48,482 nucleotides of DNA from the NCBI GenBank assembly GCA_022072125.1, contig JAJVIH010000046.1:1-48482 (forward strand), given 5' to 3'. Numbering within the stretch: the first letter of the stretch is position 1; each line of letters starts with the position of its first letter. A model generated the notes under the pieces. The model was given only the letters and a program-made list of their open reading frames with translations. It was not told where the DNA came from and did not search any database. A program made the translations under genes and the position numbers. This DNA is from Myxococcota bacterium (lineage in GTDB: Bacteria > Myxococcota > JAJVIH01). Positions 253 through 25,856 of this stretch are shown here, piece after piece.

Positions 253-1011
253 TTATTTCTGGTGCGGCAGGAAACCGGAAAGAGAGCCCGCCGCCGTGGT
301 TGCGGCGGAGTTGTCCGGCAGGCGCGGCCCGTTCCACGTGAGATCCGCCAGGACCGCGCCGTCGAAATCCAGTTCGCCGGTGAGGCGGACCGTGGCGACC
401 GCGGGCAATCCCGCCGGCGGGGAACCGCGCACGATCAGCTTCTCCACCGCGATTTCCGGCGGCGGAATCAAGACCCCCGGACGGCCTGTCCGCAATGGAA
501 TGGCGTGGAAGGTTTGTCCCCCCACCAGCGCCAGGACAATGCAATCGCATTCACGGTTCAACTCCACCGAGGCGCTGACGAACGCCCCGGCGTCTCCCGG
601 GCGATGCCGCCAGGTCAGAAGTCCCACGTATTTCTGGGCGGCGCGCAGGCGCGAGCGCACGGGAATCTCCCGCCGCCCGGCGTGGGACCCCTCGTGAACC
701 AGCGTCCCCGTGAAACCGGGGACCATGCGCACGCCGGTTTCATGGGTCCCCGCCCGCAGGATGAGTTCCGAAGGAGGAATGGTGAAAATGGATGGCGAAG
801 CCCCGCCGCCCAGGGGAAGAATGGCCTTGTCTTCCGAATACAGAAATTCCGGCCAGGAAGAGGCCGGCGGCGGCTCCCGCGGTCCGCTGTCCGGAACCGG
901 AATGGGAGGCGCGTTTCCGCCGTCAAAGACGGAAGAGCGTCCCTCGCAGGCGCCCAACAGGAGCAAGCCGGACAGAAAAACGGTGATGGGGAGGTCGTTT
1001 CCTGTTCTCAT
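253..1011 (-). CDS. putative lipoprotein of unknown function
   Basis: A 252-residue protein starting at the ATG at 1011. This start places a short N-terminal region and a hydrophobic stretch (residues 7-21) directly before a lipobox LGAC with Cys22, so it should be processed by signal peptidase II. An in-frame ATG at 1023 is also possible; neither has a strong ribosome binding site. After the Cys comes a Pro/Ser/Asp-rich linker (about 23-55), then a probably beta-rich region with a C-D-C motif. I recognise no catalytic motif or family. It lies downstream of glpK on the same strand with a 198-bp gap, so co-transcription is possible but not shown. The lipobox is seen; envelope location is inferred; function is unknown. 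Confidence 0.6.
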   Translation of the reverse strand: MRTGNDLPITVFLSGLLLLGACEGRSSVFDGGNAPPIPVPDSGPREPPPASSWPEFLYSEDKAILPLGGGASPSIFTIPPSELILRAGTHETGVRMVPGFTGTLVHEGSHAGRREIPVRSRLRAAQKYVGLLTWRHRPGDAGAFVSASVELNRECDCIVLALVGGQTFHAIPLRTGRPGVLIPPPEIAVEKLIVRGSPPAGLPAVATVRLTGELDFDGAVLADLTWNGPRLPDNSAATTAAGSLSGFLPHQK

Positions 1012-5133: not shown

Positions 5134-5940
5134 TCAGACCCCGGTGACGAACAATCCCAGGTCATCGGCGAGGGCGATCGTCCGTTCCTTTTCAATGATC
5201 CAGGCGCGGCGGGCCGCCACCGCCGCGCCCCGGGCGCCCGCCGCATGCAGGTTGAGGATGGTTTGCGGGCCAATGGCCGGCAAATCAAAGCGCTGGTCGT
5301 GGTTCAAACCTCCGGCCTTGACCAGCACAAAGCCGCCGGAGGACAACTGTCCCGCCCGGGCGATCAGGGCGTCGGCGCCTTCGATGGCTTCCACCGCCAA
5401 ACAGACGCCCTTATGGATGGCCACGGCCTGACCCACCTCCGCCTGGTTCAGCACGCGCAAAATCTCCATGCCGGTTTCGATGTCCCGGCGCCCGGCGGCG
5501 TCCGGTTTGCGGCGGGTCACCGGACCTTCCCCGGCCAGCCACTCCGGAATGATTTCATGCCCGGCGCGCACGGCGACGCCGTTCGACTCCAGGTGGTCCG
5601 CCAGCGCCGTCAGCAGGGAATTATCGCCGCGCCATTTGAGCCGCGCCAGCAGCAGCATCGCCGTTGCATCCGGACGCGCGCCGCCGAACAGCCGGGTCTT
5701 GCGGACGCCGCCCGCGAAAACCGCGGCGGAAGCGCCGGCCTCCAGAAGGTGATCGGTCAGCGCGCCGATTTGTCCCACATGAATCCAGCGGACCGGCGCA
5801 AGGCCGGCGATGGCGGGATCGGTCTCTCCCTCGTGCGCCACCACGATAACCGGGCGGCCGTTCTCCGCCAGGCGGCGGACAATCGCGAGGGGCAGCGCGC
5901 CATTGCCCGCGATCACGCCAATGGGCGCGGGATCACTCAT
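5134..5940 (-). CDS. lpxI: UDP-2,3-diacylglucosamine pyrophosphatase LpxI
   Basis: Hydrolyses UDP-2,3-diacylglucosamine to lipid X and UMP in lipid A synthesis; LpxI replaces LpxH in many alpha- and deltaproteobacteria. The 268-residue product matches the family length. Recognisable features are the N-terminal IGVIAGNGALPL motif, VAHEGETDP, the central GGVRKTRLFGGARPD region, and the C-terminal segment with GLNHDQRFDLPAIGP followed by NLHAAGARG. The start at 5940 overlaps the 3' end of lpxA by 8 nt, implying translational coupling. It is the last gene of the skp-lpxD-fabZ-lpxA-lpxI run. No lpxB follows. Confidence 0.93.
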   Translation of the reverse strand: MSDPAPIGVIAGNGALPLAIVRRLAENGRPVIVVAHEGETDPAIAGLAPVRWIHVGQIGALTDHLLEAGASAAVFAGGVRKTRLFGGARPDATAMLLLARLKWRGDNSLLTALADHLESNGVAVRAGHEIIPEWLAGEGPVTRRKPDAAGRRDIETGMEILRVLNQAEVGQAVAIHKGVCLAVEAIEGADALIARAGQLSSGGFVLVKAGGLNHDQRFDLPAIGPQTILNLHAAGARGAAVAARRAWIIEKERTIALADDLGLFVTGV

Positions 5941-6757
5941 CGTCCCCGGGATGGACGGCGCCGGGATTCTTGCGCCAGGAACACAGACCCATTTTACCGC
6001 CCGCCACGAACTCCAGCAGTTCCGCCGTTTCAGGATGCTGGCGCGCCAGGCTTTCCCGGATTTCCGCCAGATGCCGCTCGCGGCTTCCATGCGTGGAAAA
6101 CAGGATGCGCAGGGCCTGCCGGTACGCCCCCATGGCCCCGCCAGACCAGCCGAGTTTGCGGCAGCCTTGTGCGTTCAGTCCCAGCAGCCGGGCGCGGTCC
6201 CCCGCCGCGCGCACGCAGGGCGGCACGTCGGCCGGAACCATGGCCCCCGCCGCCACGAACGCGCCGCGCCCGATGCGCGCGAAGGGACCCACGGCGGCGA
6301 AACCGCCAAAAGCCGCCTGATCGCCCACCATCACGTGGCCCGCCAGGGTGGCCCCGTTGGCGAAAATGCAGCCGTCGCCAATGACGCAGTCATGGGCGAT
6401 ATGAACATAGGCCATGAACAGATTGCCCGCGCCGATGCGGGTGACGCCCCCGCCATGGGCGGTGCCGCGGTTGACGGTCACCGACTCCCGGAAGGTGTTG
6501 CCGTCGCCGATGATCAACTCCGACGGCTCGCCCCTGAATTTGAGGTCTTGCGGCTCCCCGCCCAGCACGCAAAAAGGATGCACGCGGTTCTTGCGGCCCA
6601 TCCGCACCCCGGAGCGGATGACCGCATGGGCGTCAATCACGCAGCCGGGGCCGATCTCCACGCCGGCTTCAATGACCGCGCCCGGGCCGATGATCGCGTC
6701 TCCGGCGATTTTCGCCTGGGGGGAAATCCATACCGGAGAATGACTGGACCTGTTCAC
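5933..6757 (-). CDS. lpxA: UDP-N-acetylglucosamine acyltransferase LpxA
   Basis: First committed acyl transfer of lipid A synthesis, moving a hydroxyacyl group from ACP to UDP-GlcNAc. The 274-residue protein shows left-handed beta-helix hexapeptide repeats from about residue 10 to 190 (IGPGAVIEAGVEIGPGCVID and similar), the substrate loop NTFRESVTVNRGT, and the catalytic-His segment MAYVHIAHDCVIGDG. The C-terminal helical part (about 195-274) contains LLGLNAQGCRKLGWS. The start is GTG at 6757, overlapping the fabZ stop as GTGA, so translation is probably coupled. An upstream in-frame ATG exists but would lie deep inside fabZ. Confidence 0.95.
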   Translation of the reverse strand: MNRSSHSPVWISPQAKIAGDAIIGPGAVIEAGVEIGPGCVIDAHAVIRSGVRMGRKNRVHPFCVLGGEPQDLKFRGEPSELIIGDGNTFRESVTVNRGTAHGGGVTRIGAGNLFMAYVHIAHDCVIGDGCIFANGATLAGHVMVGDQAAFGGFAAVGPFARIGRGAFVAAGAMVPADVPPCVRAAGDRARLLGLNAQGCRKLGWSGGAMGAYRQALRILFSTHGSRERHLAEIRESLARQHPETAELLEFVAGGKMGLCSWRKNPGAVHPGDDE

Positions 6758-7197
6758 TCCGCTTTCCTGATCACCCGCGCGGTGATGACCGCTTCGCACG
6801 CGAGTTCTCCCCCGGCTTGCGCGCGCGCCGACTGTTTCCACACCCCCAGTTTTTGTTGCAGAATCCGGCATTCCATGTCCAGCCGGTCGCCCGGTATCAC
6901 CTGGCGCCGGAATTTCACCTTGTCCAGACCGGTCAGCAGGAACAAATCCCGCTCCGGATCGTACCCGCCCGATTCATATACCAGCAGGCCCGCCAATTGC
7001 GAGAGCGCTTCCAGCGTCATCACCCCCGGCAACACCGGATGCTCCGGAAAATGCCCGGGAAAAAACGGCTCGTTGATGGTGACGTTCTTGAACCCGCGAA
7101 TCCATTCGTTCGCCCGGAAGTCCTCGACCCGGTCCACCAGCAGAAAGGGGAAACGGTGCGGCAGGACCTGCTGGATATGCCGGATGCCGCGCGTCAT
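6754..7197 (-). CDS. fabZ: 3-hydroxyacyl-ACP dehydratase FabZ
   Basis: Dehydrates 3-hydroxyacyl-ACP in type II fatty acid synthesis and so competes with LpxA and LpxD for the same acyl-ACP pool. The 147-residue product is a typical single hotdog domain. The catalytic His is in FFPGHFPEHPVLPG and the catalytic Glu in TLEALSQLAG. The N-terminal substrate segment reads QVLPHRFPFLLVDRV. The ATG at 7197 lies 4 bp after the lpxD stop; the 3' end overlaps lpxA. Its position between lpxD and lpxA is the conserved order in many proteobacteria. Confidence 0.97.
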   Translation of the reverse strand: MTRGIRHIQQVLPHRFPFLLVDRVEDFRANEWIRGFKNVTINEPFFPGHFPEHPVLPGVMTLEALSQLAGLLVYESGGYDPERDLFLLTGLDKVKFRRQVIPGDRLDMECRILQQKLGVWKQSARAQAGGELACEAVITARVIRKAE

Positions 7198-7201
7198 GCT
7201 G

Positions 7202-8260
7202 TCAGCGGCGGCGGGCGGCGACGAACTGATTCTCCAGTTCCTTGAGCCGTTTTTCCAGTTCAGGCAGGCGCTGGACAATCGCCTGGCCGCGCAGCCAGCG
7301 GAAATGCTCCACCGCCGGATAACCCGCCACCGTGCAGTGCGGACCCACGTCGTTGATGACGCCCGACTTGCCCGCGATCACGGCGTTTTCGCCCACGGTC
7401 ACATGTCCGGTCACGCCCACCTGCCCGCCCAGCACCGCCCCGTCTTCAATGCGGGTGCTGCCCGCCACGCCCACCTGGGCGGCGATCAGGCAGCCCTTGC
7501 CCACATGAACGTTGTGGCCAATCTGCACCAGGTTGTCGAATTTGCTGCCCGCGCCGATGCGCGTCTCGCCGATGGCTCCGCGATCAATGCAGCAGTTGGC
7601 CCCCAGGTCCACGTCGTCCTCGATCACCACCACGCCCAACTGGGCGCCGCGCAACATGCCCTCGGAGGATTTCACGAAGCCAAATCCCTCCGCCCCGATC
7701 ACGCATCCCGAACCGATGCGCACCCGGGCGCCGATGGTGCAATAACCATGGATGGTCACCCGCGGACCGATATCGCAGCCTTCGCCGATGGTGATGTCAT
7801 TTTCAATGACGCCGCCGGCGCCGATGCGGGTTCCGCCGCCGATGCGCACCCGGGGCCCGATGACCGCGTTGTTCTCCACCCGCGCCCGCGGGTCCACTTC
7901 CGCCAGGCGGTGGATATAGGCGGAGGGTGCGATCCACGGCTCCACCTCCGGCGGGGGAAACATCACCGCCACGATTTTCAGGAAGGCGATGTCCGGGCGG
8001 GCGTGCTCGATCAGGGCCGCATTGGGCAGGATATCGTCAATCTCCTCGCGGTCGCGCGGGGTGACGATCAGCAGCGCGGCCTTCGAGCGCAACAGACGCT
8101 CGCGGTAGCGGTGGTCGGAATAGAAAGCGACAGCCCCGCTGTCTTCCTCGCCAATCGCCGCCACGGCGTTGATGGAGAGGGAGGCGTCGCCCGCCAGCCT
8201 GCCGTTGCAGATGCTGGCGAGTTCGCCGGCGGTGAAGGATCGCAGGGCTGTGACGGCCAT
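7202..8260 (-). CDS. lpxD: UDP-3-O-acylglucosamine N-acyltransferase LpxD
   Basis: Third step of lipid A synthesis: N-acylation of UDP-3-O-acylglucosamine using hydroxyacyl-ACP. The 352 residues comprise an N-terminal uridine-binding domain (about 1-110), a left-handed beta-helix of hexapeptide repeats (about 115-310) and a C-terminal helix likely to form a coiled coil (LPELEKRLKELENQF). The catalytic His lies in LVQIGHNVHVGKG. The C-terminal helical tail is a little longer than in the E. coli enzyme. It starts 15 bp after the skp stop and ends 4 bp before fabZ. Confidence 0.96.
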   Translation of the reverse strand: MAVTALRSFTAGELASICNGRLAGDASLSINAVAAIGEEDSGAVAFYSDHRYRERLLRSKAALLIVTPRDREEIDDILPNAALIEHARPDIAFLKIVAVMFPPPEVEPWIAPSAYIHRLAEVDPRARVENNAVIGPRVRIGGGTRIGAGGVIENDITIGEGCDIGPRVTIHGYCTIGARVRIGSGCVIGAEGFGFVKSSEGMLRGAQLGVVVIEDDVDLGANCCIDRGAIGETRIGAGSKFDNLVQIGHNVHVGKGCLIAAQVGVAGSTRIEDGAVLGGQVGVTGHVTVGENAVIAGKSGVINDVGPHCTVAGYPAVEHFRWLRGQAIVQRLPELEKRLKELENQFVAARRR

Positions 8261-8275
8261 ATAGGTTCCGCGAGG

Positions 8276-8866
8276 TTACTTTTTTCCGGGCTCCGGTTTG
8301 GCGTCCTTGTTCTCGCCTTCCTTGGGAGCCGCGGCCTTGGAGGGATACCGTTCATTGTACAGCCGCACCAGTTGTTCGGTGACATTCATTCCCGGCTTGG
8401 CGTAGATGATATTGGTGTCGGTTTTCTCCATGATCATGACGAATCCCTCCTTCTCGGCGATCTCCTTGGCGATGATGCTCATCTTGCCGAAGATTTCCCG
8501 GGTCAGGCGGCCCTCCTCCTTGCTGAGTTCGGTCTGCAGCTTCATGTAGAGCTGCTGCAGTTCCATGAACTTCTTCTGCAGTTCGGTTTCCTTGGCGCGG
8601 CGGGCGTCCACGGTCAGCAGGTTGGCCTGGGCGTCGTATTCTTCCTTGAGTTTCTTGAGTTCTTCCTGCTTCTTGTCGAGGGTTTTCTGTTTTTCGTCGA
8701 AGTCCTTCTTGAGGGCGGCCTTGGCGTTCCGGCCTTCATCCACCTCGCTGAGGGCGGCCTGCAGGTCCACATAGGCGATCTTGACGTTCTGGGCGGCCGC
8801 ATCCAGCGCGAACAGCGCCAGCGCCAGCGCCAGCGTGGCGGTTCCGGGCAGTTTGATAAGGTTCAT
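8276..8866 (-). CDS. skp: periplasmic chaperone Skp/OmpH
   Basis: Holds unfolded outer-membrane proteins in the periplasm on their way to the BAM complex. The 196-residue protein begins at the ATG at 8866 (CAGGA about 11 bases upstream). It has a signal peptide (hydrophobic 8-24, cleavage near DAAAQN), the strand KIAYVDLQAAL, then a long charged coiled coil rich in Lys/Glu (about 50-145) typical of Skp tentacles, and the closing strands GFVMIMEKTDTNIIYA. The C-terminal 30 residues are an extra charged tail ending GKK. An in-frame ATG at 8890 has no better signal. It heads the lipid A operon; bamA, usually just upstream, is replaced by the divergent gpsA. Confidence 0.92.
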   Translation of the reverse strand: MNLIKLPGTATLALALALFALDAAAQNVKIAYVDLQAALSEVDEGRNAKAALKKDFDEKQKTLDKKQEELKKLKEEYDAQANLLTVDARRAKETELQKKFMELQQLYMKLQTELSKEEGRLTREIFGKMSIIAKEIAEKEGFVMIMEKTDTNIIYAKPGMNVTEQLVRLYNERYPSKAAAPKEGENKDAKPEPGKK

Positions 8867-8896
8867 GGCCAGAAATCCTGAAAAAAACAATGCGGG

Positions 8897-9114: not shown

Positions 9115-10134
9115 ATGTCCACCGGAAATCAGGTCCTCAAGATTGGAGTCATCGGCGCGGGAAGCTGGGGAACAGCGCTCGCCAAACTGCTGGCGGACCA
9201 GGGACGCGATGTGCTGATCTGGTCCTACGAGGCCGAGGTGGCCCGCCAGATCAACGATTCCCACGAAAACCTGAAGTACCTGCCCGGCGTGCCCCTGCCC
9301 GCCAACCTGCGCGCCACCAACGACATCGAGGCCTGCGTCTACAAGGCGGACTGCATCCTGCAGGTCAACCCCTCCCACGTGGTGCGCAATGTCATGGGCG
9401 GCGTCGCCAAGCGGCTGCCCGACCACGCCCCCATCGTCTCCGCGTCCAAGGGAATTGAAAACGACTCCCTGATGACCATGTCGGAGGTGCTGGAGGATGT
9501 CCTGCCGGAACGGCTGCACCCCTACCTAGTCTACCTCTCCGGTCCCAGCTTCGCCCGCGAAGTGGCGGAGGGCATGCCGACCGCGGTGACCCTGGCCGCA
9601 CATATGGAGCGGGTGGCGAAGCGCGTGCAAGGGATCATCCACACACCGTTTTTCCGCACCTATATCAGCAACGACGTGGCGGGCGTGGAGGTGGCGGGCG
9701 CGTGCAAGAACGTCATCGCCATCGCCGCCGGCGCGGTGGACGGCATGGGCTTCGGCCACAACACCAAGGCCACGGTCATCACCCGCGGCATCGCGGAGAT
9801 CTCGCGGCTGGCGTCGGCCAAGGGGGCCAATCCGCTGACCCTGATGGGGTTGTCGGGGCTGGGCGATCTGGTGCTGACCTGCACCGGCCACCTGTCGCGC
9901 AACCGGGGCGTGGGCCAGCGCCTGGGCAAGGGCGACACCCTCGAACAGGTGCTGGGCGACATGACCATGGTGGCCGAGGGCGTGAAGAACGCCCGGTCGG
10001 TGCATGATCTGGCGGCGCGCCTGGGGGTGGAAATGCCGATTTCAGACGCCGTGTATTCGGTGATATACGAAAAGAAGGATATCCAGCAGGCGATCATTGA
10101 TTTGATGGCCCGTCAGATGAAACGAGAGCATTGA
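9115..10134 (+). CDS. gpsA: glycerol-3-phosphate dehydrogenase [NAD(P)+]
   Basis: Reduces dihydroxyacetone phosphate to sn-glycerol 3-phosphate, the backbone for phospholipid synthesis. The 339-residue length is normal. The N-terminal Rossmann motif is IGVIGAGSWGTALA; the middle shows SASKGIENDS and YLSGPSFAREVAEG; the catalytic-Lys region is VAGACKNVIAIAAGAVDGMGFGHNTKA; the C-terminal helical domain carries GLSGLGDLVLTCTGHLSRNR. The start at 9115 is preferred because GGAGG lies 5 bases upstream; an ATG at 9103 is in frame but has no such site and would cover the promoter. The stop (10132-10134) touches the next gene. Confidence 0.96.
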   Translation: MSTGNQVLKIGVIGAGSWGTALAKLLADQGRDVLIWSYEAEVARQINDSHENLKYLPGVPLPANLRATNDIEACVYKADCILQVNPSHVVRNVMGGVAKRLPDHAPIVSASKGIENDSLMTMSEVLEDVLPERLHPYLVYLSGPSFAREVAEGMPTAVTLAAHMERVAKRVQGIIHTPFFRTYISNDVAGVEVAGACKNVIAIAAGAVDGMGFGHNTKATVITRGIAEISRLASAKGANPLTLMGLSGLGDLVLTCTGHLSRNRGVGQRLGKGDTLEQVLGDMTMVAEGVKNARSVHDLAARLGVEMPISDAVYSVIYEKKDIQQAIIDLMARQMKREH

Positions 10135-10136
10135 TC

Positions 10137-11486
10137 ATGCAGCGCAGCATACCCGCCCTCACGGCAATCCTGATTCTGATCGCCGGCGCGGCCGCCGCGA
10201 AGCCACCGGCGCCGGCCGCCGCCACCGGAACGGAAACCGCCTCCCCCGCCGCCGGCGCGACCTCCGCCGCGAGCACGGCCCCGGCCGACATCAGCCTGAC
10301 CGCCGAGGAGCACCTGAGCCTGGGCGCCGCCGCCTTCCGCGTCAACGATTTCGACAAGGCGCTCTGGCATTTTGAAGAGGCCAACAAACAGTACCGGAAT
10401 TATCCGCCCGCGCTGATCCTGCGCGCCAACGCCCGCTTCGCCACCGGACAATTCGGCGGCGCGGGCGCCGACCTGACGCAAGCGATCGCCAGTTCGCCGA
10501 CCGCCATCCAGGAAATCCACAACGTCCGCGACATGTGGCGGGATTTCGAAACCTACCAGCGGCGCTTTGACGAACTGGGCCTGCGCGTCAACAACGGCGA
10601 GGCTTCCATGCAGGAGATCATCCTGTTCGGGTTTTATTACCAGGTGGGCGGATATCCCGGGGATGCGCGCAAGGTGCTGGAACAGCTCGACGCGCGGGGG
10701 CGCGAAGCGACCGCGGCCAAACGGGTGGCGGAATTCGAGCCCGATTACGCGGCCTGGATTGATTTGCCCGAGCCGCCGGAGGTGAAGCAGCCGAAACAAT
10801 CCCGGCGCAAGTCCTCCACTGGCGGCGGCGGGTGGATGCATCACGAGTACCGCTTCCGCGCGCCATCCGGTCCGCCTCCTCCCAGCATCCCTCCTCCTCC
10901 CAAGGTCATCCGTTTTCCCGACAACCGGGACAAGCGGCTGTTCACTCTCGGGTTTGATATTGGCGGCGGCTACGCAACCGGCAAGCTGGGCCGGTATTTG
11001 CGGGCGGGTCCGTTCACGCGCTTCTTCTTTGCTTTCCTGCCCGGGCGGTTCGAGGCCGATCTGTCCTTCGCCTTCCGCGGGCTGGACGCGCGCGACTATA
11101 TTTCCGCCGCGGGCAACAAGCTGGTTCCCTTTGCTTTCGTGAACGACAACTTCTTCGGCTTCAGCCTGGGGGTGGATGGCGCCTACCATTTCCTGCCGAA
11201 GAAGAGTGTTTTCGATCCCGCGCTGCGCCTCGGCTACGACGCCCATTTCATCCAGCTTGTGGACATGCGCGGGCGGCGTTTTCAGGAGCATCCCACCGAG
11301 TTGTTCGTGCGCGGCCATGGTCCCAAGGCGGCGGCGGACTTCAATTTTCCGATTCCCTTCATCATGACCGATTTCGTGCTGGGCCTGAGCACGAGCTATT
11401 CGGTCTTCATCGTGCAGGATGAAGCCGGCCGGAATTTCGACGGCGGCATCCTGGATGTGGCCATCCGCCTGGGTTTCCGTTTCTAA
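10137..11486 (+). CDS. exported TPR-like protein with C-terminal beta-barrel-like domain
   Basis: A 449-residue protein from the ATG at 10137, two bases after the gpsA stop. A TTG at 10131 overlapping that stop is an alternative. The signal peptide has hydrophobic residues 6-21 ending in AAAAK, followed by an Ala/Pro/Thr-rich linker to about 45. Residues ~50-215 read as helical repeats (HLSLGAAAFRVNDFDKALWHFEEA), like TPRs. A basic, Pro-rich linker (about 220-258) precedes a Gly/aromatic-rich, probably beta-stranded region (about 262-449) with alternating strands and a terminal Phe (LGFRF), the usual last residue recognised by the BAM machinery. I infer an outer-membrane barrel with a periplasmic TPR part. 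Function is unknown. Confidence 0.75.
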   Translation: MQRSIPALTAILILIAGAAAAKPPAPAAATGTETASPAAGATSAASTAPADISLTAEEHLSLGAAAFRVNDFDKALWHFEEANKQYRNYPPALILRANARFATGQFGGAGADLTQAIASSPTAIQEIHNVRDMWRDFETYQRRFDELGLRVNNGEASMQEIILFGFYYQVGGYPGDARKVLEQLDARGREATAAKRVAEFEPDYAAWIDLPEPPEVKQPKQSRRKSSTGGGGWMHHEYRFRAPSGPPPPSIPPPPKVIRFPDNRDKRLFTLGFDIGGGYATGKLGRYLRAGPFTRFFFAFLPGRFEADLSFAFRGLDARDYISAAGNKLVPFAFVNDNFFGFSLGVDGAYHFLPKKSVFDPALRLGYDAHFIQLVDMRGRRFQEHPTELFVRGHGPKAAADFNFPIPFIMTDFVLGLSTSYSVFIVQDEAGRNFDGGILDVAIRLGFRF

Positions 11487-11639: not shown

Positions 11640-13772
11640 ATGTCGGAACACCTGGAGGAATTCAAGCCCAAGCTGCGTCCCGGCATCCAGCAGATTCCAT
11701 TGCCCGAGGGCGCGGTCGCGATCAAGGAGCCCCGCAACGGCGTTTACTGCGAGGTGGAAGCGGACGAGGCGTTCCTGCTCGGGTTCATGGACGGCTCGCA
11801 TTCCGTGGGCGATCTGGCCCACCAGTACATGCAGAAGTTCGGCAAGATCAGCATCCGGAAAATCATGTCGCTGCTGGCCAACCTGGGGGATCGCCGCCTG
11901 CTGCTGAATCCGGATGAAGAACTCATCAAGCTCAATCTGCTCCATCCCGCTCCCCCGGAAAATATCTTCGGCAAAATCCTGCGCGTCCTGACCCGGCTGG
12001 AAATATATGACCCGGTCACCACCAGGCTGCTGCAAAAATTCATGCGTCCGGGCATGTGGATTGGCATGCTCGGCGTGCTGGGGCTCACGGTCGCCTACGC
12101 GGGGGGCCGCATTATCACCACGGGTCACCGCGAAGCGGGCGAGGCAGGACTGCGCAGCGCGCCCGAGAACCTGTTCAGCGTCAGCGGATCCTACATGATG
12201 GGCCTGATCGCCATGATCCTGGCGGTGATGTTCGTGCAATCCGTCCGGGAACTGGCCAAGGGTCTGGCCCTGGTGGAGCAGGGCGGGCAGATCCACGCGG
12301 CCGGTTTCTGCTTCACCGGATTCGTTCCTTTCCTGGGCGTTGATACGCGGGATGTGTTCATCACCGGCCGCCTGGGACGCCGCCAGCTCGCCCAGGTGGG
12401 AATCACGTCCTACGTCTTCACCAGCATTCTCGGCCTGATGTTCATGATGACCGCCGAAGACGACGGCTCCCATATTTTCTGGAGCCAGACCGCGCTGGTG
12501 TCCTTCATCGGACTGCTGCTGGCGATCTGCCCGTTTTTGGGCAAGAGCGATCTCTCCCTGATGATCGCGGAGATGCTTCCGGGGGTGAACTGGCAGGTCA
12601 ATTTCCGCAGCTACCTGCACAAGCGGCTGTTGTCCCGCTTCTTCAGGAAGGACCAGTTCGACAACGAGCAGGTTTACCTGGTGGCCGGCATTTACGGCCT
12701 GCTGTGGTTCATCGGCGCCCTGGTGATGCTGGCGATGGCGGCGGCCAACTACCTGGTCCGATTCTGGATTGATCGCGGCAGGGCGCCGGATGCGCAGGAC
12801 AACGCGGCCAATCTGATCCTGCTCGCCATGCTGTCGCTGACCATCCTGCTGGTGGCGCTCGCCTTCTTCTGGGAAGTGATGCGTCTGCTCACCGCCGGAA
12901 CCATGGAGAAACTCGACACCGCGCGCAGGACTGGCAAGGTGGCCTCCACCGCAGCCGTGGCGGGCGACGCCCAACTGGTCCAGGAACTGCGCAACATTCC
13001 CCTGTTCGCGGCGATGTCCAACGCGGACCTGACGCAACTCGCCCACGCGGTGGAACTGCGCACCTACAAGGCGGGCAACTACATCATCCGGCAGGGGGAT
13101 CAGGGCGACGAGTTCTACAGCATCCGGCGCGGGGCCGTGGAGGTGCGCATCACTTCCAATACCGGCCTGGAAGGCACGGTGGCCCGGCTCCAGCCAGGCG
13201 ACGGATTCGGAGAAATCGCCCTGCTGCAACAGGTTCCCCGCACCGCCAGCGTGCTGGCCACCGAGGATACAGAGGTCTTCGCCATGAAGCGCGACGATTT
13301 CATCGCCGCCTGCCAGAAGGCCAATCTGTCGCCGGACAAGGTGACCAGCCTGCTGCGCATGCTTCAGTATCTCAAGACGCTGGATTTCTTCCGCGACCTT
13401 TCCTCCGGGCAGTTGCTCAAGCTGGCCACGCAACTGCGGCCTGAAAGCGCCAACCCGGGTGATTATGTGATTCGCCAGGGGGAAATCGGCAATAAGTTCT
13501 ATTTGCTGCAAGGGGGAGAGGTGGACATCGCCATCGGCGATTCCCCGGCGAATGAAAAGGTGGTGGCCTCCCTCAAACCAGGCAGCTACTTCGGCGAGAT
13601 CGCCCTGCTCAAGAATATCCCCCGCACCGCCAACGTGAAGGCGAAGACGCCGGTGCAACTGCTTTCACTGACCAAGGAAGTGTTCCTGGACATCGTGGCG
13701 TCGAATTTCCTGATGTCCATGAACCTGGAACGCACCGGAGACCGGCGTCTCCAGATCAGCGCGCAGGAGTAG
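11640..13772 (+). CDS. membrane protein: PqqD-like, degenerate M50 protease and tandem cyclic-nucleotide-binding domains
   Basis: A 710-residue multidomain protein. Residues ~20-100 resemble a PqqD peptide-binding domain (A-F-L-L-G-F-M-D-G-S near 45-53). Residues ~135-415 hold about six membrane segments arranged like the M50 site-2-protease/peptide zinc metalloprotease family. At the position of the HExxH zinc motif the sequence reads RELAK (203-207), so both histidines are lost while Glu204 remains. The downstream Asp sites (D238 in DTRDVF, D304 in KSDLSLM) seem retained. Residues ~450-570 and ~580-695 are two cNMP-binding domains, each with an intact phosphate-binding cassette (FGEIALL at 523 and 651; PRTA at 533 and 661). 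I infer a non-catalytic membrane receptor or transporter gated by a cyclic nucleotide. It is 4 bp from the next gene. Confidence 0.82.
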   Translation: MSEHLEEFKPKLRPGIQQIPLPEGAVAIKEPRNGVYCEVEADEAFLLGFMDGSHSVGDLAHQYMQKFGKISIRKIMSLLANLGDRRLLLNPDEELIKLNLLHPAPPENIFGKILRVLTRLEIYDPVTTRLLQKFMRPGMWIGMLGVLGLTVAYAGGRIITTGHREAGEAGLRSAPENLFSVSGSYMMGLIAMILAVMFVQSVRELAKGLALVEQGGQIHAAGFCFTGFVPFLGVDTRDVFITGRLGRRQLAQVGITSYVFTSILGLMFMMTAEDDGSHIFWSQTALVSFIGLLLAICPFLGKSDLSLMIAEMLPGVNWQVNFRSYLHKRLLSRFFRKDQFDNEQVYLVAGIYGLLWFIGALVMLAMAAANYLVRFWIDRGRAPDAQDNAANLILLAMLSLTILLVALAFFWEVMRLLTAGTMEKLDTARRTGKVASTAAVAGDAQLVQELRNIPLFAAMSNADLTQLAHAVELRTYKAGNYIIRQGDQGDEFYSIRRGAVEVRITSNTGLEGTVARLQPGDGFGEIALLQQVPRTASVLATEDTEVFAMKRDDFIAACQKANLSPDKVTSLLRMLQYLKTLDFFRDLSSGQLLKLATQLRPESANPGDYVIRQGEIGNKFYLLQGGEVDIAIGDSPANEKVVASLKPGSYFGEIALLKNIPRTANVKAKTPVQLLSLTKEVFLDIVASNFLMSMNLERTGDRRLQISAQE

Positions 13773-13776
13773 TCCC

Positions 13777-14184
13777 ATGGGTATGATGACGAAAATCATC
13801 GCGGTGGTGGCTCTGGGAGCAGCAGGCGGCGGCGGCATGGACAAAATCAAGGGCGCGGTCGCCAAGGCCTCCAGCATTTTCGCGGCGGAAACCACAAAAA
13901 TCGAGTTGAATGAACAACTCCACCAGGTCCGCTCCTACCTCGCCGACAACAACATGCAGTACCCCTACAACTACGCCGATTTTCTGCGCAAGAATTTCGA
14001 CGCCAAGGGGGGGCGGGATCCCGCGGTGGACCAGTGGGGGAGCCCGTACCAGCTCGAACCCAATGACGAAGGGTTCAAGGTGCGATCCTGCGGCCCCGAC
14101 AAGCAATGCAATACGGACGACGACATCATGGTGGCGAACAGTTCGCTCGCCCGCATGAGACGCCAGGTCATCAACACCAACTGA
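13777..14184 (+). CDS. GspG-like pseudopilin-domain protein lacking a prepilin signal
   Basis: A 135-residue protein. The start at 13777 has AGGAG seven bases upstream. The C-terminal half has the hallmark order of type II secretion major pseudopilins: D-P-x-V-D-Q-W-G-S-P-Y (about 83-93), then a Gly/Cys turn and C-N-T-D-D-D-I (about 111-117), equivalent to the calcium-binding end of GspG. The N-terminus is different. There is no K/R-G-F-T-L-x-E prepilin cleavage site and no long hydrophobic helix, only a short apolar stretch (about 5-17) with a Gly run. Two cysteines (near 104 and 110) could pair. It is almost certainly co-expressed with the cNMP-binding membrane protein. Location and function are unknown; it may be a substrate or soluble partner of that protein. 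Confidence 0.7.
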   Translation: MGMMTKIIAVVALGAAGGGGMDKIKGAVAKASSIFAAETTKIELNEQLHQVRSYLADNNMQYPYNYADFLRKNFDAKGGRDPAVDQWGSPYQLEPNDEGFKVRSCGPDKQCNTDDDIMVANSSLARMRRQVINTN

Positions 14185-16261: not shown

Positions 16262-18487
16262 TTACTTCTTCGCCGGGCTCTGGTAGACGCTGAAGCCTTC
16301 CAGATCGGTGTTGAGGTCATCCAGGTTCTGGCTGTTCTTGAGGTCAATCAGCTTGCCCGGAGCGGGATCGCCCTTGACCTTCAGAGACTCGACATTCCAC
16401 TTGTCCGCCTTGTCGGTGCCGCGGGCTTCCACACCCAACGCCTTGGCGTCGGGCACGGTGATGCTCGCGGTGCCCTTGGCGGCGTAGAACACCCAGCTCT
16501 TGTCGTTGTCGCCGAAAGCGACGCGGACCAAGCTGGAGCCGGAGCCTTCCTTCAGGGTGAACTTGCGGGAAGCGGGGTCATAGGCCGAACCCTCGCCGAA
16601 GCCCAGGAAGTTGCTGCTGGACAGGTCAACTTCACGCTCCACCTTGTCCGACCAACGGACCAGGCCGGAGATGTTGAAGCCGCTGCTGCCGCCAATGGCG
16701 TCAATCGGAGCCGCCAGCACGATGTAGCCGTACGGACGATTCACGATTCCGCCATGCTGGGGAGCGATGTTCAGGCCCAGTTCGCCATCCTTGAGGGACT
16801 TGTTGCCCTTGGGCGGGGAAATCACGCCATCGCCCGGCACGCCCTGTTCAGGCGAGTCGAGGGCGGCGCCAAGTCCCAGCGGAACCATGCCGAGGTCCTT
16901 GTCCTGAGCGCCAACCAGCACCAGGGCGCCGGAAACCGGCTTGCCGCCCAGGGTGGGCAGTTTGGCCAGCTTCATCTTGACGTTCAGTCCCAGCGGAGCG
17001 GTCAACTTGGCGGTGCGCTTGGGGAACGCGGTGGCGTTGTCATAGTCCGGCTTGCCGGCCTTGAGCGGGGCGTGCTGAACCAGGAGATCCGACTCGATGG
17101 CGTGGCTGAAGTTGGCGAACAGCGGAAGCACCGCCGCCAGGATGGTGCCGATGGGCAGGTCGCCGCCGCCGCCGCCGCCCAGCACCGGGCCGAGGACGTC
17201 AATCAGCTTGGTGACCTCGGACAGGGCGACAGTGCCGCCAACCGCCCAGCCCACACGGCGTCCGGGGGCGCCTTCCACGAAAAATTCACCCTTGGCCTTT
17301 TCGCAGAAGCCCTGAGCCTCGAACACCAGCGCGCCCGGCAGATCAACGGTGTCGTTGAGGCCGAAGGTCGAGCAGGCGAGCGGGGTCGGGATGCTGGAGC
17401 CCAGCAGCATATTCAGGTTGAGGTCAACCAGGTTGCCGCCGATGGACACGCCGACAATCGCCAGCTTCAACTCGTTCTGGGGATTCTTGGCCTTGCTGTA
17501 GTCCATGTTGCCGCGCATGCCGCCGGTCTGGCTCATCACGTCGTTGGCGGGCAGGTGCACCACCACGAGGTCGGAGGCCGATCCGCCGAGCACGGACACA
17601 TAGGCGTAATCCGCCGCGAAGACATGGACGTCATCGCCCGGCTTGCCGCCGGCGATCTCGGCCACGCCATTGGCGTCGGTCTTGCCCTTGGCGGTTCCCA
17701 CCACCACGTCGGCGTTGGCCACGGGCTTGCCGCCGATTTCAGAACGCACCACCACCTTGACGCCAGCCGCGGGCTTGCCCGGGTTGGTCAGCTTGGAGAC
17801 GTTCTTGCAGTCGGCGCCGCCCTTGATCTTGGCCTTGATGTCGGTGGTTCCAGCCTTGGAGCCGCCCTTCGCCAGACCCTTGGCGTCAATGGAGGCCACG
17901 CCGGTGTCGGAAGAGGACCACTCGAACTCCACGCGGCCCACAGCGCTGTCGCCGCCGAAAGCCACCGCGCTGTACTGCCGCTCGGCGCCTTCGGTGATCA
18001 CGCCATCGGGGGTCACGACTTCACAGGAGGCCGGGGCCGGCTTGGGGCATTCGCCGCACTTGCCCAACTCGCAGCACTTGCCGGCGCCACATTCGTTGTC
18101 GGTCGAGCACAGGGGCGGAGCGCATTCTCCAGTCACCACGTTGCAGATTTCACCCGCCTTGCAGTCGCTGTCGGCGGAGCACAGCTTGACGCACTGGGCT
18201 TCCTTGCACACAAACCCCGGCTGGCAGTCGTCGTCAATTTCGCACTCGGGCTTCGGACCGGTGTCGCCGCCGCCGGTATCGCCGGTCGTGGAGTCCGGAG
18301 CGGCCGCATCGGTTCCGCCGCCGCCAGTATCGGGCGTTCCGCCGCCGCCAGTGTCCTTGGCTCCGCCGGCGTCCGTCGGAGTACCAGGAGAGTCCGTATC
18401 GGTCGCGGTGGTATCACCACCGCATGCGGTCATTCCTGCCGCGACGACAGCCGCGAGAGCGACCATCCACAGTTGCTTCAATTTCAT
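16262..18487 (-). CDS. large Cys-rich surface lipoprotein
   Basis: A 741-residue lipoprotein with GGAGG seven bases before the ATG. The signal sequence ends in a lipobox GMTAC with Cys22. Residues 23-80 are a low-complexity Gly/Thr/Asp/Pro spacer. Residues 82-147 hold repeated C-x-D-x-D-C-x-x-G-x-x-C units with about 16 cysteines, likely disulfide-bonded. Residues ~155-230 resemble a bacterial Ig-like domain (WSSSDTGVASIDAKGLAKG). Residues ~245-310 resemble a carboxypeptidase-regulatory-like beta-sandwich (ANADVVVGTAKGKTDANG). The rest is beta-rich with no enzyme motif recognised. This architecture is common among myxobacterial and related surface lipoproteins. I infer display on the cell envelope. 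It is monocistronic, with its own terminator. Confidence 0.85.
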   Translation of the reverse strand: MKLKQLWMVALAAVVAAGMTACGGDTTATDTDSPGTPTDAGGAKDTGGGGTPDTGGGGTDAAAPDSTTGDTGGGDTGPKPECEIDDDCQPGFVCKEAQCVKLCSADSDCKAGEICNVVTGECAPPLCSTDNECGAGKCCELGKCGECPKPAPASCEVVTPDGVITEGAERQYSAVAFGGDSAVGRVEFEWSSSDTGVASIDAKGLAKGGSKAGTTDIKAKIKGGADCKNVSKLTNPGKPAAGVKVVVRSEIGGKPVANADVVVGTAKGKTDANGVAEIAGGKPGDDVHVFAADYAYVSVLGGSASDLVVVHLPANDVMSQTGGMRGNMDYSKAKNPQNELKLAIVGVSIGGNLVDLNLNMLLGSSIPTPLACSTFGLNDTVDLPGALVFEAQGFCEKAKGEFFVEGAPGRRVGWAVGGTVALSEVTKLIDVLGPVLGGGGGGDLPIGTILAAVLPLFANFSHAIESDLLVQHAPLKAGKPDYDNATAFPKRTAKLTAPLGLNVKMKLAKLPTLGGKPVSGALVLVGAQDKDLGMVPLGLGAALDSPEQGVPGDGVISPPKGNKSLKDGELGLNIAPQHGGIVNRPYGYIVLAAPIDAIGGSSGFNISGLVRWSDKVEREVDLSSSNFLGFGEGSAYDPASRKFTLKEGSGSSLVRVAFGDNDKSWVFYAAKGTASITVPDAKALGVEARGTDKADKWNVESLKVKGDPAPGKLIDLKNSQNLDDLNTDLEGFSVYQSPAKK
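18248..18421 (-). repeat. low-complexity coding repeat (Gly/Thr/Asp spacer)
   Basis: This part of the lipoprotein gene encodes residues 23-80, with repeated D-T-G-G-G-G-T and D-T-G-G-G-D-T units. It is a probable unstructured tether between the lipid anchor and the Cys-rich module, and a candidate for length variation between strains. Confidence 0.6.
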
Positions 18488-19718: not shown

Positions 19719-19770
19719 CGGACCCCCCAGCGGCACGCCGGACCGGATGGCTTCATTATGAAACATGGAT

Positions 19771-19799
19771 TTCCATCCCGCAATGCTTTCCAGTATAAC
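19771..19799 (+). promoter_or_regulatory. possible promoter for the ABC exporter
   Basis: TTCCAT (19771-19776) and TATAAC (19794-19799) are 17 bp apart. The -10 is good and the -35 poor. Transcription would begin at or next to the GTG at 19806, giving a leaderless message. Confidence 0.35.
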
Positions 19800-19805
19800 G
19801 CGCCC

Positions 19806-20588
19806 GTGATTTCCGCCCTCAAGGAGTTGTACCGCCACCGGGAGTTGCTCAGCCTGCTGACCGGACGGGAACTGGCCGCGCGCTACAAGCAGACCGCCGC
19901 GCGCGGGCTGTGGGCTGTCTTCAAGCCGATGTCCCAACTGGCGGTGTTCGTGGTGGTTTTCGGATCGCTGCTGGAGATTCCCCACGTCCACATGCCCTAC
20001 CCGATCTTCGTGCTGATCGGGCTCATGGCCTGGAACTGGTTCAGCACCTCGGTCAGCCGGGGCGCCGAGCAATTGCTGGCCCAGGGCAGCCTGTTGTGCA
20101 AATCCGCTTTTCCGCGCGAGATTTTCCCCCTGACCCAGGTGCTGGTGGCGCTCGCCGATTTTGGCATGAACCTGGTCCTGCTGGTGGCGCTCTGTCTCAT
20201 CCATGGCGTGGGCCCCTACTGGACCTGGCTGCTGGCCATTCCCGTATCGCTGGGCGTGTTGCTGTTCATCAGCGGATTGGTGCTGCTGTTTTCCGCCCTC
20301 AACATGCTGTTCCGCGACGTGGGCCACGGCTTGGGGCTGCTGCTGCAAATCGGCATGTACCTCTCCCCGGTGTTTTACCCGGCGGCGGTGATTCCGGAAA
20401 AATGGCGCGTGCTGTATTTCCTCAATCCCATGGCGGGGTATATTGAATCGTTGCGCGCATGCATCGGCCTGGGACAGATCCCCCCTCCGCTGCCGCTGGG
20501 CATGGCCATCGCCGGAACCGCGGCCGCGCTGGCGGGCGGATATTTTGTTTTCAAACGCATCGAGCCGGTCTTTCCCGATGTCCTCTGA
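19806..20588 (+). CDS. ABC-2 polysaccharide exporter permease (Wzm type)
   Basis: Membrane subunit of an ABC exporter for O-antigen, teichoic-acid or capsule-like polymers. About 260 residues; the N-terminal cytoplasmic motif LKELYRHRELLSLLTGRELAARYKQT is characteristic of this permease family. About six membrane segments follow (about 35-57, 66-85, 115-140, 148-175, 180-198 and 230-248). The conserved SPVFYP motif lies near 200, followed by LNPMAGYIESLR. I chose the GTG at 19806 because the family N-terminus starts there; an ATG at 19758 would add 16 atypical residues. Its 3' end overlaps the ATPase gene by 11 nt. Confidence 0.88.
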   Translation: MISALKELYRHRELLSLLTGRELAARYKQTAARGLWAVFKPMSQLAVFVVVFGSLLEIPHVHMPYPIFVLIGLMAWNWFSTSVSRGAEQLLAQGSLLCKSAFPREIFPLTQVLVALADFGMNLVLLVALCLIHGVGPYWTWLLAIPVSLGVLLFISGLVLLFSALNMLFRDVGHGLGLLLQIGMYLSPVFYPAAVIPEKWRVLYFLNPMAGYIESLRACIGLGQIPPPLPLGMAIAGTAAALAGGYFVFKRIEPVFPDVL

Positions 20589-21789
20589 AGCCGCACAGCC
20601 GGTCATCCGCTTTGAAGGCGTGTCGAAGGCCTTCGCCAAACCCGGCGCGCGCGAACTGATCGCCCGCCTGCTGCACGGCCACCAGGCCAATGTGACGGGC
20701 GCCTACGCCCTGCAGGACATCAGCTTTTCCGTTCACAAGGGAGAGACCTTCGGCGTCATCGGCGTCAACGGCGCGGGGAAATCCTCGCTGCTCAAGCTGG
20801 TGGCGCGGGTGACTGTTCCCACCACCGGCCGGATAGACGTGCGCGGCCGCGTGACGCCGCTGATCGAACTGGGCGCGGGATTCCATCCGGAGTTTTCCGG
20901 CTACGACAATATCTTCCTCAACGCCGCGGTGCTGGGCATGAAGCGCGCCGAGACGGCGAAAGCCGTGGATGACATCATCGAATTTTCCGGCCTGGGGGAG
21001 CGCATCCACGAGCCGGTCAAGCATTATTCGTCGGGCATGTACGTGCGCCTGGGATTTTCCATCGCTGTGTTCACCCGCCCGGAAATCCTGTTGATTGACG
21101 AGGTGCTGGCGGTCGGCGACATCAGCTTCCAAGCGAAATGCCTGAGCCGCCTCAAGGAATTGAAGGATCAGGGCGTAACCTTCCTGTTTGTCTCCCATTT
21201 CATGAACCAGGTGGTGACGCTCTGCAACCGCGTCATGCTGCTCGACAGGGGCCGCATCGTGGAAATCGGCGACACCCAGACCGTCGTGGACAAATATTAC
21301 GAGGCCATCGCCAACCGCAGCGAGAAGGAGTTCAAGACCACGCTCTGGCGGGAACATGGGGGGGAAGGGGGAAAACCGCCCGTGGTGCTGACGGCGGCCC
21401 GTTTTTCCGGTCCCGGCGGCGGAGATCCGGACGAATTGCCCGCCGGTTCGCCCTGCCGCATCGAGGTGGACTACGAATGCGATCCCAACGTGCCGCCCCC
21501 GGTGCTGCATATTCACCTGCACCACCTCGACGGCACCACCATGATCTCGCAGGCCAACAGCTTCGATGGCGTGACCATTCCCACCGCAGCGGGGCGCGGC
21601 ACCGTGGTGCTGGAGATTGATATTTTGCCTCTGGCGCCGGGTTTCTATGATTTTTTCGCGACGGTCTACGATTCGCAGGGAGTGGCGCCCTACGACCGCC
21701 AGGCGCGCTTCAAGCGGCTGCACATTACTTCCGATCGCCCGCATATGGGCATGCTGAGCCTGCCCCACCGCTGGATCATGAAGACGTGA
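20578..21789 (+). CDS. ABC polysaccharide exporter ATPase with C-terminal substrate domain (Wzt type)
   Basis: A 403-residue partner of the preceding permease. Walker A is GVNGAGKSS (about 63-71), the signature region KHYSSGMYVRLGFSIAV (about 153-169) and Walker B ILLIDEVLAVGD. The usual ABC-signature LSGG is replaced by YSSGM, as is normal in this exporter family. After about residue 255, a C-terminal region (about 275-395) looks beta-rich and corresponds in position to the Wzt carbohydrate-binding domain that recognises the glycan to be exported. The start at 20578 overlaps the permease stop. No glycosyltransferases are in the window, so the polymer cannot be named. Confidence 0.92.
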   Translation: MSSEAAQPVIRFEGVSKAFAKPGARELIARLLHGHQANVTGAYALQDISFSVHKGETFGVIGVNGAGKSSLLKLVARVTVPTTGRIDVRGRVTPLIELGAGFHPEFSGYDNIFLNAAVLGMKRAETAKAVDDIIEFSGLGERIHEPVKHYSSGMYVRLGFSIAVFTRPEILLIDEVLAVGDISFQAKCLSRLKELKDQGVTFLFVSHFMNQVVTLCNRVMLLDRGRIVEIGDTQTVVDKYYEAIANRSEKEFKTTLWREHGGEGGKPPVVLTAARFSGPGGGDPDELPAGSPCRIEVDYECDPNVPPPVLHIHLHHLDGTTMISQANSFDGVTIPTAAGRGTVVLEIDILPLAPGFYDFFATVYDSQGVAPYDRQARFKRLHITSDRPHMGMLSLPHRWIMKT

Positions 21790-23309: not shown

Positions 23310-25856
23310 TCAGTCCAAGGGCAAAAAGGGCAGGAGCCAGGCCCCCATCCGGCTCTCCGGGTGGGACGCCGCGGCCGCCGGAGGTCCGGAGAAAATCACC
23401 TGGCCGCCGCCGGGCCCCGCTTCCGGACCAAATTCAATGAGGTGATCGCACCACGCCGCCACCGCCAGATGATGTTCGATCACCAGTACCGTGTGGCCGT
23501 TGGCGGTCAGCATCTCGAAAATATTCAGCAACGGTTCGATGTCATCCGGGTGAAGGCCGGTGGTGGGCTCGTCCAGCACCGCCAGGGCGCGCCCGGTCCC
23601 GGGGCCGCCCAACTCGCGGGCGATGCGCAGGCGCTGGCTTTCTCCGCCGGAAAGCGTGTGCGCCGCCTGACCCAGGCCCAGATACCCCAGACCCACGGCG
23701 CATAACATGTCCAGCCGTTCGCGCAGGCCGGGGATTGGCGCGAAGAGCCGGGCGGCCTCTTCGCCGGACATGGCGAGAATACCGGCGATGGAGTGGCCGC
23801 GATAACGGATATCGAGGGTCTCGCGGTTGTAGCGGGCGCCATTGCAGGCTTCGCAAATCACCCAGGCGTCCGGCAAGAACACCATGCCGACGCGGCGCAC
23901 GCCAAGCCCCTGGCAGTTTTCGCAGCGCCCGCCGCGCACATTGAAGGAGAAGCGGTTGGCGCCATAACCGCGCGCCCGCGCATCGGGCAGTCCGGCGAAG
24001 AGTTCGCGCAGCAGGGGCATGATCCCCAGCACGGTGGCGGGACACGAACGCGGCGATCGTCCCAGCGGAGATTGATCCACCACCAGCACCCGCTGAACGG
24101 CGTTCGCGCCGGCGATGGACCTGTACGGCAATCCCGTGCTGGCCCCGCCATGCAGCCGCGCGCGCAGCGCCGGAACCAGCGTGTCCATCACCGCGGATGA
24201 CTTGCCCGCGCCGCTCACCCCCGCCACGCAGACGCACATGCCCAGGGGAATGGCCATCTCCGCATTGCGCAGGTTGTGGCCGGTCATGCCCTTGATGATT
24301 AGCTTCCCGGCGGATTTTCGCTTGCCGGATCGGGCGGGAAAGCTCTTCCTTCCCGACAACCATGGGCCGGTCACGCTGGAGGGATTCTGTTCCAGCCCCG
24401 CGGGAGCGGCCCCGGCGAGCACTTCCCCGCCCCGCTTTCCCGCGCCCGGACCCATGTCCACCACCCAGCCGGCCGCGCGGATGATATCCAAATCATGCTC
24501 CACCACCACCACCGTATTGCCGGCGTCGCGCAGGGCCAGCAGGCACTGTATCAACCGTCTCACGCCGGCGGGGTGAAGCCCGATGGAGGGCTCGTCCAGC
24601 ACGTACAACACGCCGGAAAGCCCCGCGCCGATCTGCGTGGCCAGGTGCAGCCGCTGGATTTCACCGCCGGACAAAGCGCGCGCGGAGCGATCAAGGGTCA
24701 GGTACCCAAGCTCCAGTTCACGCAGAAAGCGGGCGCGGCCGCGCAATTCCTTCATCAACGGAGCGGCGGCCGCCTCCAAGCTGGCGGGGAAATTCCAGCC
24801 GTCCATGTCCGCGGCGAATTGATCCAGGCTCATCCCTTCCAGTTCGTGGATGGCCCGGCCATTGACCCGCACATGACGCGCCTCGATGCGCAGCCGCGCG
24901 CCCAGGCAGGAGGGGCAATGGCGGGATTGAAACGCGGCGGGCGCTTCCTCCGCGGACTCCTCCGCGCCATCGTTGTCCGGGCTTTCCTGATCCGGCGGCG
25001 CGGATTGCAGCCCGGTCCCCCCGCAGACCGGACAGGCGCCCATCGGACTGAACCAGGAGAAGAGTTCAGGCTCCAGCGGCGGATAACGGATATCACAAGC
25101 GGCGCAGTAGGGGCTGGTGCTGTAATAGCGTGTTTGGCCGCCGCACAACACGCCTGCGACGCCATTGGCGGCGCGCAGGGCCAGTTCCAGCGAATCGGCG
25201 ATGCGGGCGCGCACGCCGGGACGGATGACGGCGCGGTCCACCACGATCGAAACCCGCGCCTTTTCCGGCAGCAAAGCTTCCGCGGGCGGTTCGCCGAGGT
25301 CGAAAATTTCGCCGCTGATCTCCGCCCGGGTGAAGCCCTGGCGCGCCAGATCATCGAACAGCGCGCGGATGGTGGATCGCGGGTGTTCGCGCAGCGGCGC
25401 CAGCAATATCACCCGCTCCCCGTCTGGCAGCGCCGTCAGTTCGTCGCAGATCGCCGCCACGTTCCACGCCCTCAGCGGCGCGCCGCAGGAGTAACAGCTT
25501 GCATCGCCGGTCCGCGCGAAGAGCACGCGCAGGAAATCGTGGATATCCGTCTGCGTGGCCACGGTGGCGCGCGCGCCGGCGGGCGGGCGGCGTTGCGACA
25601 CCGCCACCGCCGGACGCAACCCTTCAATGCCGTCCACGGGAGGGTCCGGCAACTGGGCGATGAACTGCCGCGCGGAGGGAGACAGGGATTCGATGAAGCG
25701 GCGCTGGGCCGCCGCGAACAGCGTATCGAACGCCAGCGAGGATTTTCCCGATCCCGAGGGTCCGGTGATCACCACCAGTTCACCCGCGGGAAAACGGACG
25801 CTGATATTTTTCAGGTTGTGGGTGCGGGCGCCCCGGATGCTGATGAATCCGCTCAC
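23310..25856 (-). CDS. UvrA-family ATPase lacking the insertion domain
   Basis: An 848-residue homologue of excinuclease subunit A, about 90 residues shorter than normal. Seen are Walker [10 protein letters not shown] (32-40), CYSC (121-124), a full UvrB-binding-like segment (about 150-245; [27 protein letters not shown]), the first zinc module (C251/C254, C275/C278), signature LSGGEIQRL (395), Walker [10 protein letters not shown], second Walker [10 protein letters not shown] (546-554), zinc module C645/C648 and C668/C671, and second signature LSGGESQRL (735). Between the first zinc module and CPSCLGARL (314) the usual ~110-residue insertion domain is replaced by a 29-residue acidic linker. 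GTG start, coupled to pdxA by GTGA. It may be a UvrA paralogue or the main UvrA of this organism. Confidence 0.9.

Follow-up and report, generated by a model that had tools for sequence, protein, structure and literature searches.

The window that we analysed is a stretch of 48,482 nucleotides, which is contig C30 of a 3.97-Mb Myxococcota genome. We will focus on a pair of genes on its forward strand (Table 1). The first encodes a predicted membrane protein that, judged by sequence comparison, is a member of the M50 homologous superfamily, but without the HExxH motif that defines the active M50 proteases; it is termed here the pseudo-M50 protein. The second, which starts 4 bases past the end of the first and was absent from the first-pass annotation, encodes a smaller protein with a GspG-like C-terminus, termed here the partner. 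Directly upstream of the pair, a TTG-start gene (10131-11486, +) encodes a protein of 451 aa that has TPR and whose C-terminus is possibly outer-membrane-like; no counterpart of it was seen beside the pseudo-M50 gene in two related loci, L012 and L013. Several other genes of the window can be recognised. LpxI, LpxA, FabZ, LpxD and Skp/OmpH-like genes lie in series at 5134-8890 (-), as read by eye, and 16262-18487 (-) encodes a predicted surface protein of 741 aa, whose N-terminus is rich in Asp, Thr and Gly and which has Cys-rich repeats as well as matches to Big_2 and MG3. An O-antigen/polysaccharide export pair at 19758-21789 (+) consists of a permease, ABC-2-like as judged by eye, and an ATPase whose C-terminal domain is of the Wzt type, and PdxA is followed at 25853-31090 (-) by three consecutive SurA/PPIC-type peptidyl-prolyl isomerase genes, the last of which has two rotamase domains.

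Table 1. Features of the pseudo-M50 gene and its partner (positions in the window; residues in the encoded protein).
Feature	Position	Strand	Basis
Pseudo-M50 membrane protein, 710 aa: RRE/PqqD-like domain, six TM helices, two cNMP-binding domains	11640..13772	+	ORF, profiles, hhalign
Probable PqqD/RRE-like N-terminal domain, about residues 10-92, three strands then three helices	11667..11915	+	hhalign, AF2, Foldseek
Degenerate M50 core, six predicted TM helices	12060..12869	+	hydropathy; TM-only hhalign to active M50
Predicted TM helices, residues 141-159, 181-199, 250-268, 279-297, 347-365, 392-410		+	hydropathy
R203-E-L-A-K207 at the HExxH position	12246..12260	+	ORF translation, hhalign
D304, in register with the Asp that is the third zinc ligand in active relatives	12549..12551	+	hhalign
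First cNMP-binding domain, cassette FGEIALLQQVPRTASV from residue 523	12978..13325	+	Pfam PF00027, Foldseek
Second cNMP-binding domain, cassette FGEIALLKNIPRTANV from residue 651	13362..13739	+	Pfam PF00027, Foldseek
Partner gene, 135 aa, hydrophobic N-terminus, GspG-like C-terminus	13777..14184	+	conserved downstream; GspG structure matches
GspG-like motif DxWGxPYxL...SCGPDxxCNTDDDI, residues 84-119, pseudopilin calcium-site region	14026..14133	+	family profiles; GspG structure matches

In the pseudo-M50 protein, RELAK sits just beyond the second TM helix of the hydropathy prediction and is directly followed by GLALVEQGG. The even number of predicted helices would place the PqqD-like and cNMP domains on one side of the membrane. 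A frameshift or an assembly error was ruled out as the source of RELAK, as the frame stays open over 731 codons and is collinear with that of the relatives. These relatives, which share the same layout, come from whole-genome profile searches of Myxococcota; a direct scan of the genome contigs with the window protein returned none, and neither did tblastn on plasmids. They fall into clade A (the window protein with G024, G029 and G052) and clade B (an Archangium-type family and one other family; loci L080-L087), while G169 is listed apart from both.

The assignment to M50 depends on profile comparisons, since the two cNMP-binding domains are all that Pfam recognises in the window protein. Residues 20-365 are collinear with the NCBIfam model of the daptide intramembrane metalloprotease (NF041824, E=2e-6), in a match that lies well under the curated cut-off of 300 bits of this model. 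An hhalign comparison of 12 family members with 9 HExxH-bearing PqqD-M50 proteins, which were obtained by an NF041824 search of Myxococcota and some of which have recognisable Pfam PqqD and M50 domains, gave a probability of 98.2 and E=5e-14. With the N-terminal domain removed, so that only the TM part was compared, the value was 6e-9 (reversed control 0.52), and each sub-clade taken singly also aligned with the active M50 proteins (4e-7 for clade A, 1e-5 for clade B), the reversed-sequence controls ranging from 0.14 to 0.92. In the register of these alignments, R203 and K207 occupy the places of the two His of HExxH, D238 matches the xVSD Asp, and D304 matches the Asp of (N)PxxxxDGY, which is the third zinc ligand. 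The collinear profile and the in-register alignment thus bear out the earlier proposals that RELAK replaces HExxH in an M50 homologue and that the window protein keeps D238 and D304 at the later family positions. Structure prediction is less informative here: in the AF2 model of the window protein, built on Archangium-type alignment rows, the membrane domain mostly has a pLDDT under 50, and a model of the clade B relative L080 without its cNMP domains (pTM 0.57, pLDDT 63) is weak in the same domain and gave no S2P match in Foldseek.

The closest known proteins are the PqqD-M50 metalloproteases of the daptide and YydH-LiaK epipeptide type (NF041824, NF058609; PF02163 with PF05402), in which a PqqD-like domain and an M50 core are collinear with those of the window protein and the core positions GG, xVSD and PxxxxDGY are common to both. 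The window protein differs from them in that both zinc His are replaced and two cNMP domains follow at the C-terminus.

This replacement extends to the whole family. HExxH is absent in all 14 relatives with the PqqD-M50-cNMP architecture found in Myxococcota, in which the position reads RFLFR, RNIFR, KGICQ, RDRFK, RDRCK, RDRMK, RDRLQ, RERVK, RARFK, RGFVR, RRFFQ or, in G169, RQATH. (KGICQ, from L029, was aligned by eye, as MAFFT opened a gap at the motif.) The first His is thus an Arg, or a Lys in one relative, and the second a Lys, Arg or Gln, except in G169 (L115/L126, 3-2330, +), which retains the second His, has a partner gene downstream and may represent an evolutionary intermediate. The first-pass annotation had proposed to check whether the loss of both histidines is fixed in the family; every relative lacks HExxH, with G169 alone keeping one of the two. 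Chance degeneration in a single genome can be rejected because every relative is without the motif and the first position is always Arg or Lys. In a maximum-likelihood tree of the sampled sequences, the pseudo members are split from the HExxH members by one branch (support 97/93). A single loss of HExxH for the whole group is the simplest reading of this tree rather than a proof, because the position of the root is not fixed and L029 and G169 form long branches.

What remains of the active site has to be considered, since the protein might still be a hydrolase, working through a non-zinc or shifted site such as E204/D304 or one remaining His. The window protein does retain E204, at the position of the catalytic Glu, together with D304, and G169 its second His. 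The position of E204 is, however, occupied by E, F, N, D, G, A, R or Q across the family, and D304 is retained in clade A but missing from clade B and G169. Full invariance in the alignment is seen for columns of G, L, P and W, R203 and D235 come close to it, and no other invariant set of His, Asp or Glu is found; we thus regard a persisting hydrolase as highly improbable. From its sequence, zinc proteolysis by the window protein is very unlikely, and an alternative zinc triad, one of the two results that the first-pass annotation had named as contradicting it, was not seen. For the G169 protein, with its one remaining His, a weak or different metal site retains a slight likelihood. As a speculation, the Arg/Lys pair of clade A might form a salt-bridge network with D304 and E204 that takes the place of the zinc.

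The C-terminal part would connect the protein to second messengers. Its two cNMP-binding domains, already noted in the earlier reading, are certain: PF00027 matches two stretches (E=7e-46, 154.7 bits against a cut-off of 27.5), both phosphate-binding cassettes follow the pattern FGEIALL...PRTA, and their Glu and Arg (FGE...R) are kept in nearly all the relatives. In Foldseek, the pair matches the tandem CNB regulatory structures of PKA/PKG (E 4e-23), from which the window protein differs in that its pair is joined to a six-TM pseudoprotease and not to a kinase. Six matches of the class III nucleotide cyclase type occur in the genome itself. These sequence features suggest that the C-terminal domains are sensors of cAMP or cGMP. 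None of the HExxH-bearing PqqD-M50 comparators found in Myxococcota carries a cNMP domain.

At the other end of the protein, the N-terminal domain is likely PqqD/RRE-like. Pfam PqqD does not match it directly, but hhalign sets it against the PqqD of the active PqqD-M50 relatives, and the AF2 model, with a pLDDT of 75-84 over most of the domain, shows three strands followed by three helices, a topology that fits the winged fold. With the L080 domain, Foldseek returned TbiB1 and TigE (probability 0.97-0.99, but E 0.45-0.83; for TbiB1, 0.98-0.99 and 0.5-0.8), RiPP proteins with leader-binding domains, these fold matches including lasso-peptide RRE structures. The PqqD-like head of the first-pass annotation is thus probable from alignment and fold. 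Weak matches of the PqqD/RRE-like domain were also observed on open frames of differing length at L116-L125, in various Myxococcota genomes.

A putative leader-binding head and cyclic-nucleotide domains could also belong to a transporter. The membrane domain would then be a cyclic-nucleotide-gated transporter or an exporter accessory, in which the dead core moves a peptide or small ligand that the RRE-like domain loads. The RRE-like domain does suggest peptide binding, the cNMP domains have a sub-threshold match to TIGR03896 ("bacteriocin-type transport-associated"), although CNB pairs generally may do likewise, and L052, a PqqD-M50 relative, carries HlyD export domains in the same polypeptide. 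However, neither Pfam nor NCBIfam finds a transporter family on the membrane domain of the window protein, no conserved RiPP precursor or ABC exporter adjoins the gene in the loci that were read, and the homology points to proteases and not to carriers. By homology no relative is an unrelated transporter either, which was the second result named as contradicting the earlier reading. We consider a transport function unlikely, if somewhat less so than a persisting hydrolase. The earlier reading, a dead M50 protease repurposed as a receptor, chaperone or peptide transporter, is thus upheld in part: homology, ligand loss and domains agree with a dead protease, for which the role of receptor, chaperone or transporter is putative, and no evidence was found for peptide transport or for the channel presumed by its "cytoplasmic gates".

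The partner gene gives a further indication of function. Its orthologues lie directly downstream of the pseudo-M50 gene in L012, L013, L029 and G169/L126, which makes five genomes with that of the window, and in L012, L013 and G169 the stop and start codons of the two genes overlap by 4 nt. Among 189 Myxococcota genomes, the five genes adjacent to a pseudo-M50 gene are the only strong matches to the partner profile, the remaining ones being weak and mostly restricted to the C-terminal motif. The flanking genes that were read differ between L012, L013 and the window, so it is the pair that is conserved, and not a larger island. In the clade B loci (Archangium type and the f28 genome), no partner gene adjoins the pseudo-M50 gene, and the partner is therefore dispensable for the family as a whole.

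This last observation leaves room for two functionally separate genes, namely a general cAMP-responsive membrane scaffold and an unrelated small secreted protein that happens to share its operon, as the clade B pseudoproteases would then work alone. Such a coincidence has to recur in five genomes that are divergent and whose flanks differ wherever they were read, and strong homologues of the partner occur nowhere else in the 189 genomes; we give it about one chance in five of being correct, and prefer to see the two genes as functionally linked.

By sequence, the partner carries the C-terminal module of GspG but fails as a member of the GspG family (TIGR01710, PF08334). A profile of 4 partner orthologues matched four solved GspG structures over the DxWGxxY...DD region (E 2.4e-4 to 5.6e-3), within the shared DxWGxxYxL...SxGxDxxxxTxDD region, and Pfam T2SSG weakly matches three of the orthologues, each independently. 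The family scores are nonetheless sub-threshold (14.7 against 21 bits for Pfam, 12.6 against 88.85 bits for TIGR01710), and no prepilin peptidase site of the GFTLxE type was found at the N-terminus. The N-terminus and these scores rule out a true T2SS pseudopilin. The gene also differs from gspG in lying outside the T2SS cluster, and another, separate gspG-like gene is present on contig C8 of the genome.

Homology, ligand loss, domain architecture and the conserved gene pair can all be read from the sequences. The explanation that we favour, with somewhat better than even confidence, is that the pseudo-M50 protein has no proteolytic activity and acts in the membrane as a receptor or scaffold that responds to cyclic nucleotides, of which the co-translated GspG-like partner is the probable client in the clade of the window. 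The absence of catalysis, the cNMP ligand, the topology of the partner, the physical interaction and the direction of signalling are what we infer in this model. Its ancestor would be a PqqD/RRE-fused M50 intramembrane metalloprotease of the daptide/epipeptide-protease type, which would have lost its zinc site, with Arg and Lys in place of the two His, and gained a PKA/PKG-like CNB pair at its cytoplasmic C-terminus. The binding of cAMP or cGMP to this pair would cause a conformational change that passes to the six-helix pseudo-active-site domain, and this domain would still bind a peptide, either membrane-inserted or leader-like, but no longer cleave it. For the clade of the window, the likely ligand would be the co-translated partner, with its hydrophobic N-terminus in the inner membrane and its calcium-binding pilin-like cap in the periplasm. 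The most specific version, a two-gene transmembrane module in which an Arg/Lys site-2 pseudoprotease reads cytoplasmic cAMP or cGMP and holds, without cutting it, a periplasmic pilin-like calcium-binding protein, is put forward more tentatively, at roughly one chance in three.

There are precedents for such dead proteases. The plant chloroplast protein EGY3 is a pseudoprotease of the S2P family that is described as non-proteolytic and as stabilising other proteins (PMC10978774). Like the window protein, it is an M50 homologue without HExxH; it differs in being a plant plastid protein. To our knowledge, neither PqqD nor cNMP domains have been reported in EGY3. The iRhoms of the rhomboid family are described as dead intramembrane proteases kept as regulators of membrane clients (PMC3149277). 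Here the likeness is an analogy of functioning, as the iRhoms are eukaryotic, have the unrelated rhomboid fold and are not known to carry nucleotide domains. A search of the open literature, a scope outside which most subscription journals fall, found no paper on the combined terms of this architecture.

Few descriptions exist of S2P-family pseudoproteases from bacteria, and the nearest cases that we found are the plant EGY3 and, in another fold, the iRhoms. A clade in which the loss of the zinc ligands accompanies the gain of second-messenger domains would make the conversion of an intramembrane protease into a ligand-controlled receptor testable, and would provide a connection between cAMP/cGMP and the myxobacterial membrane.
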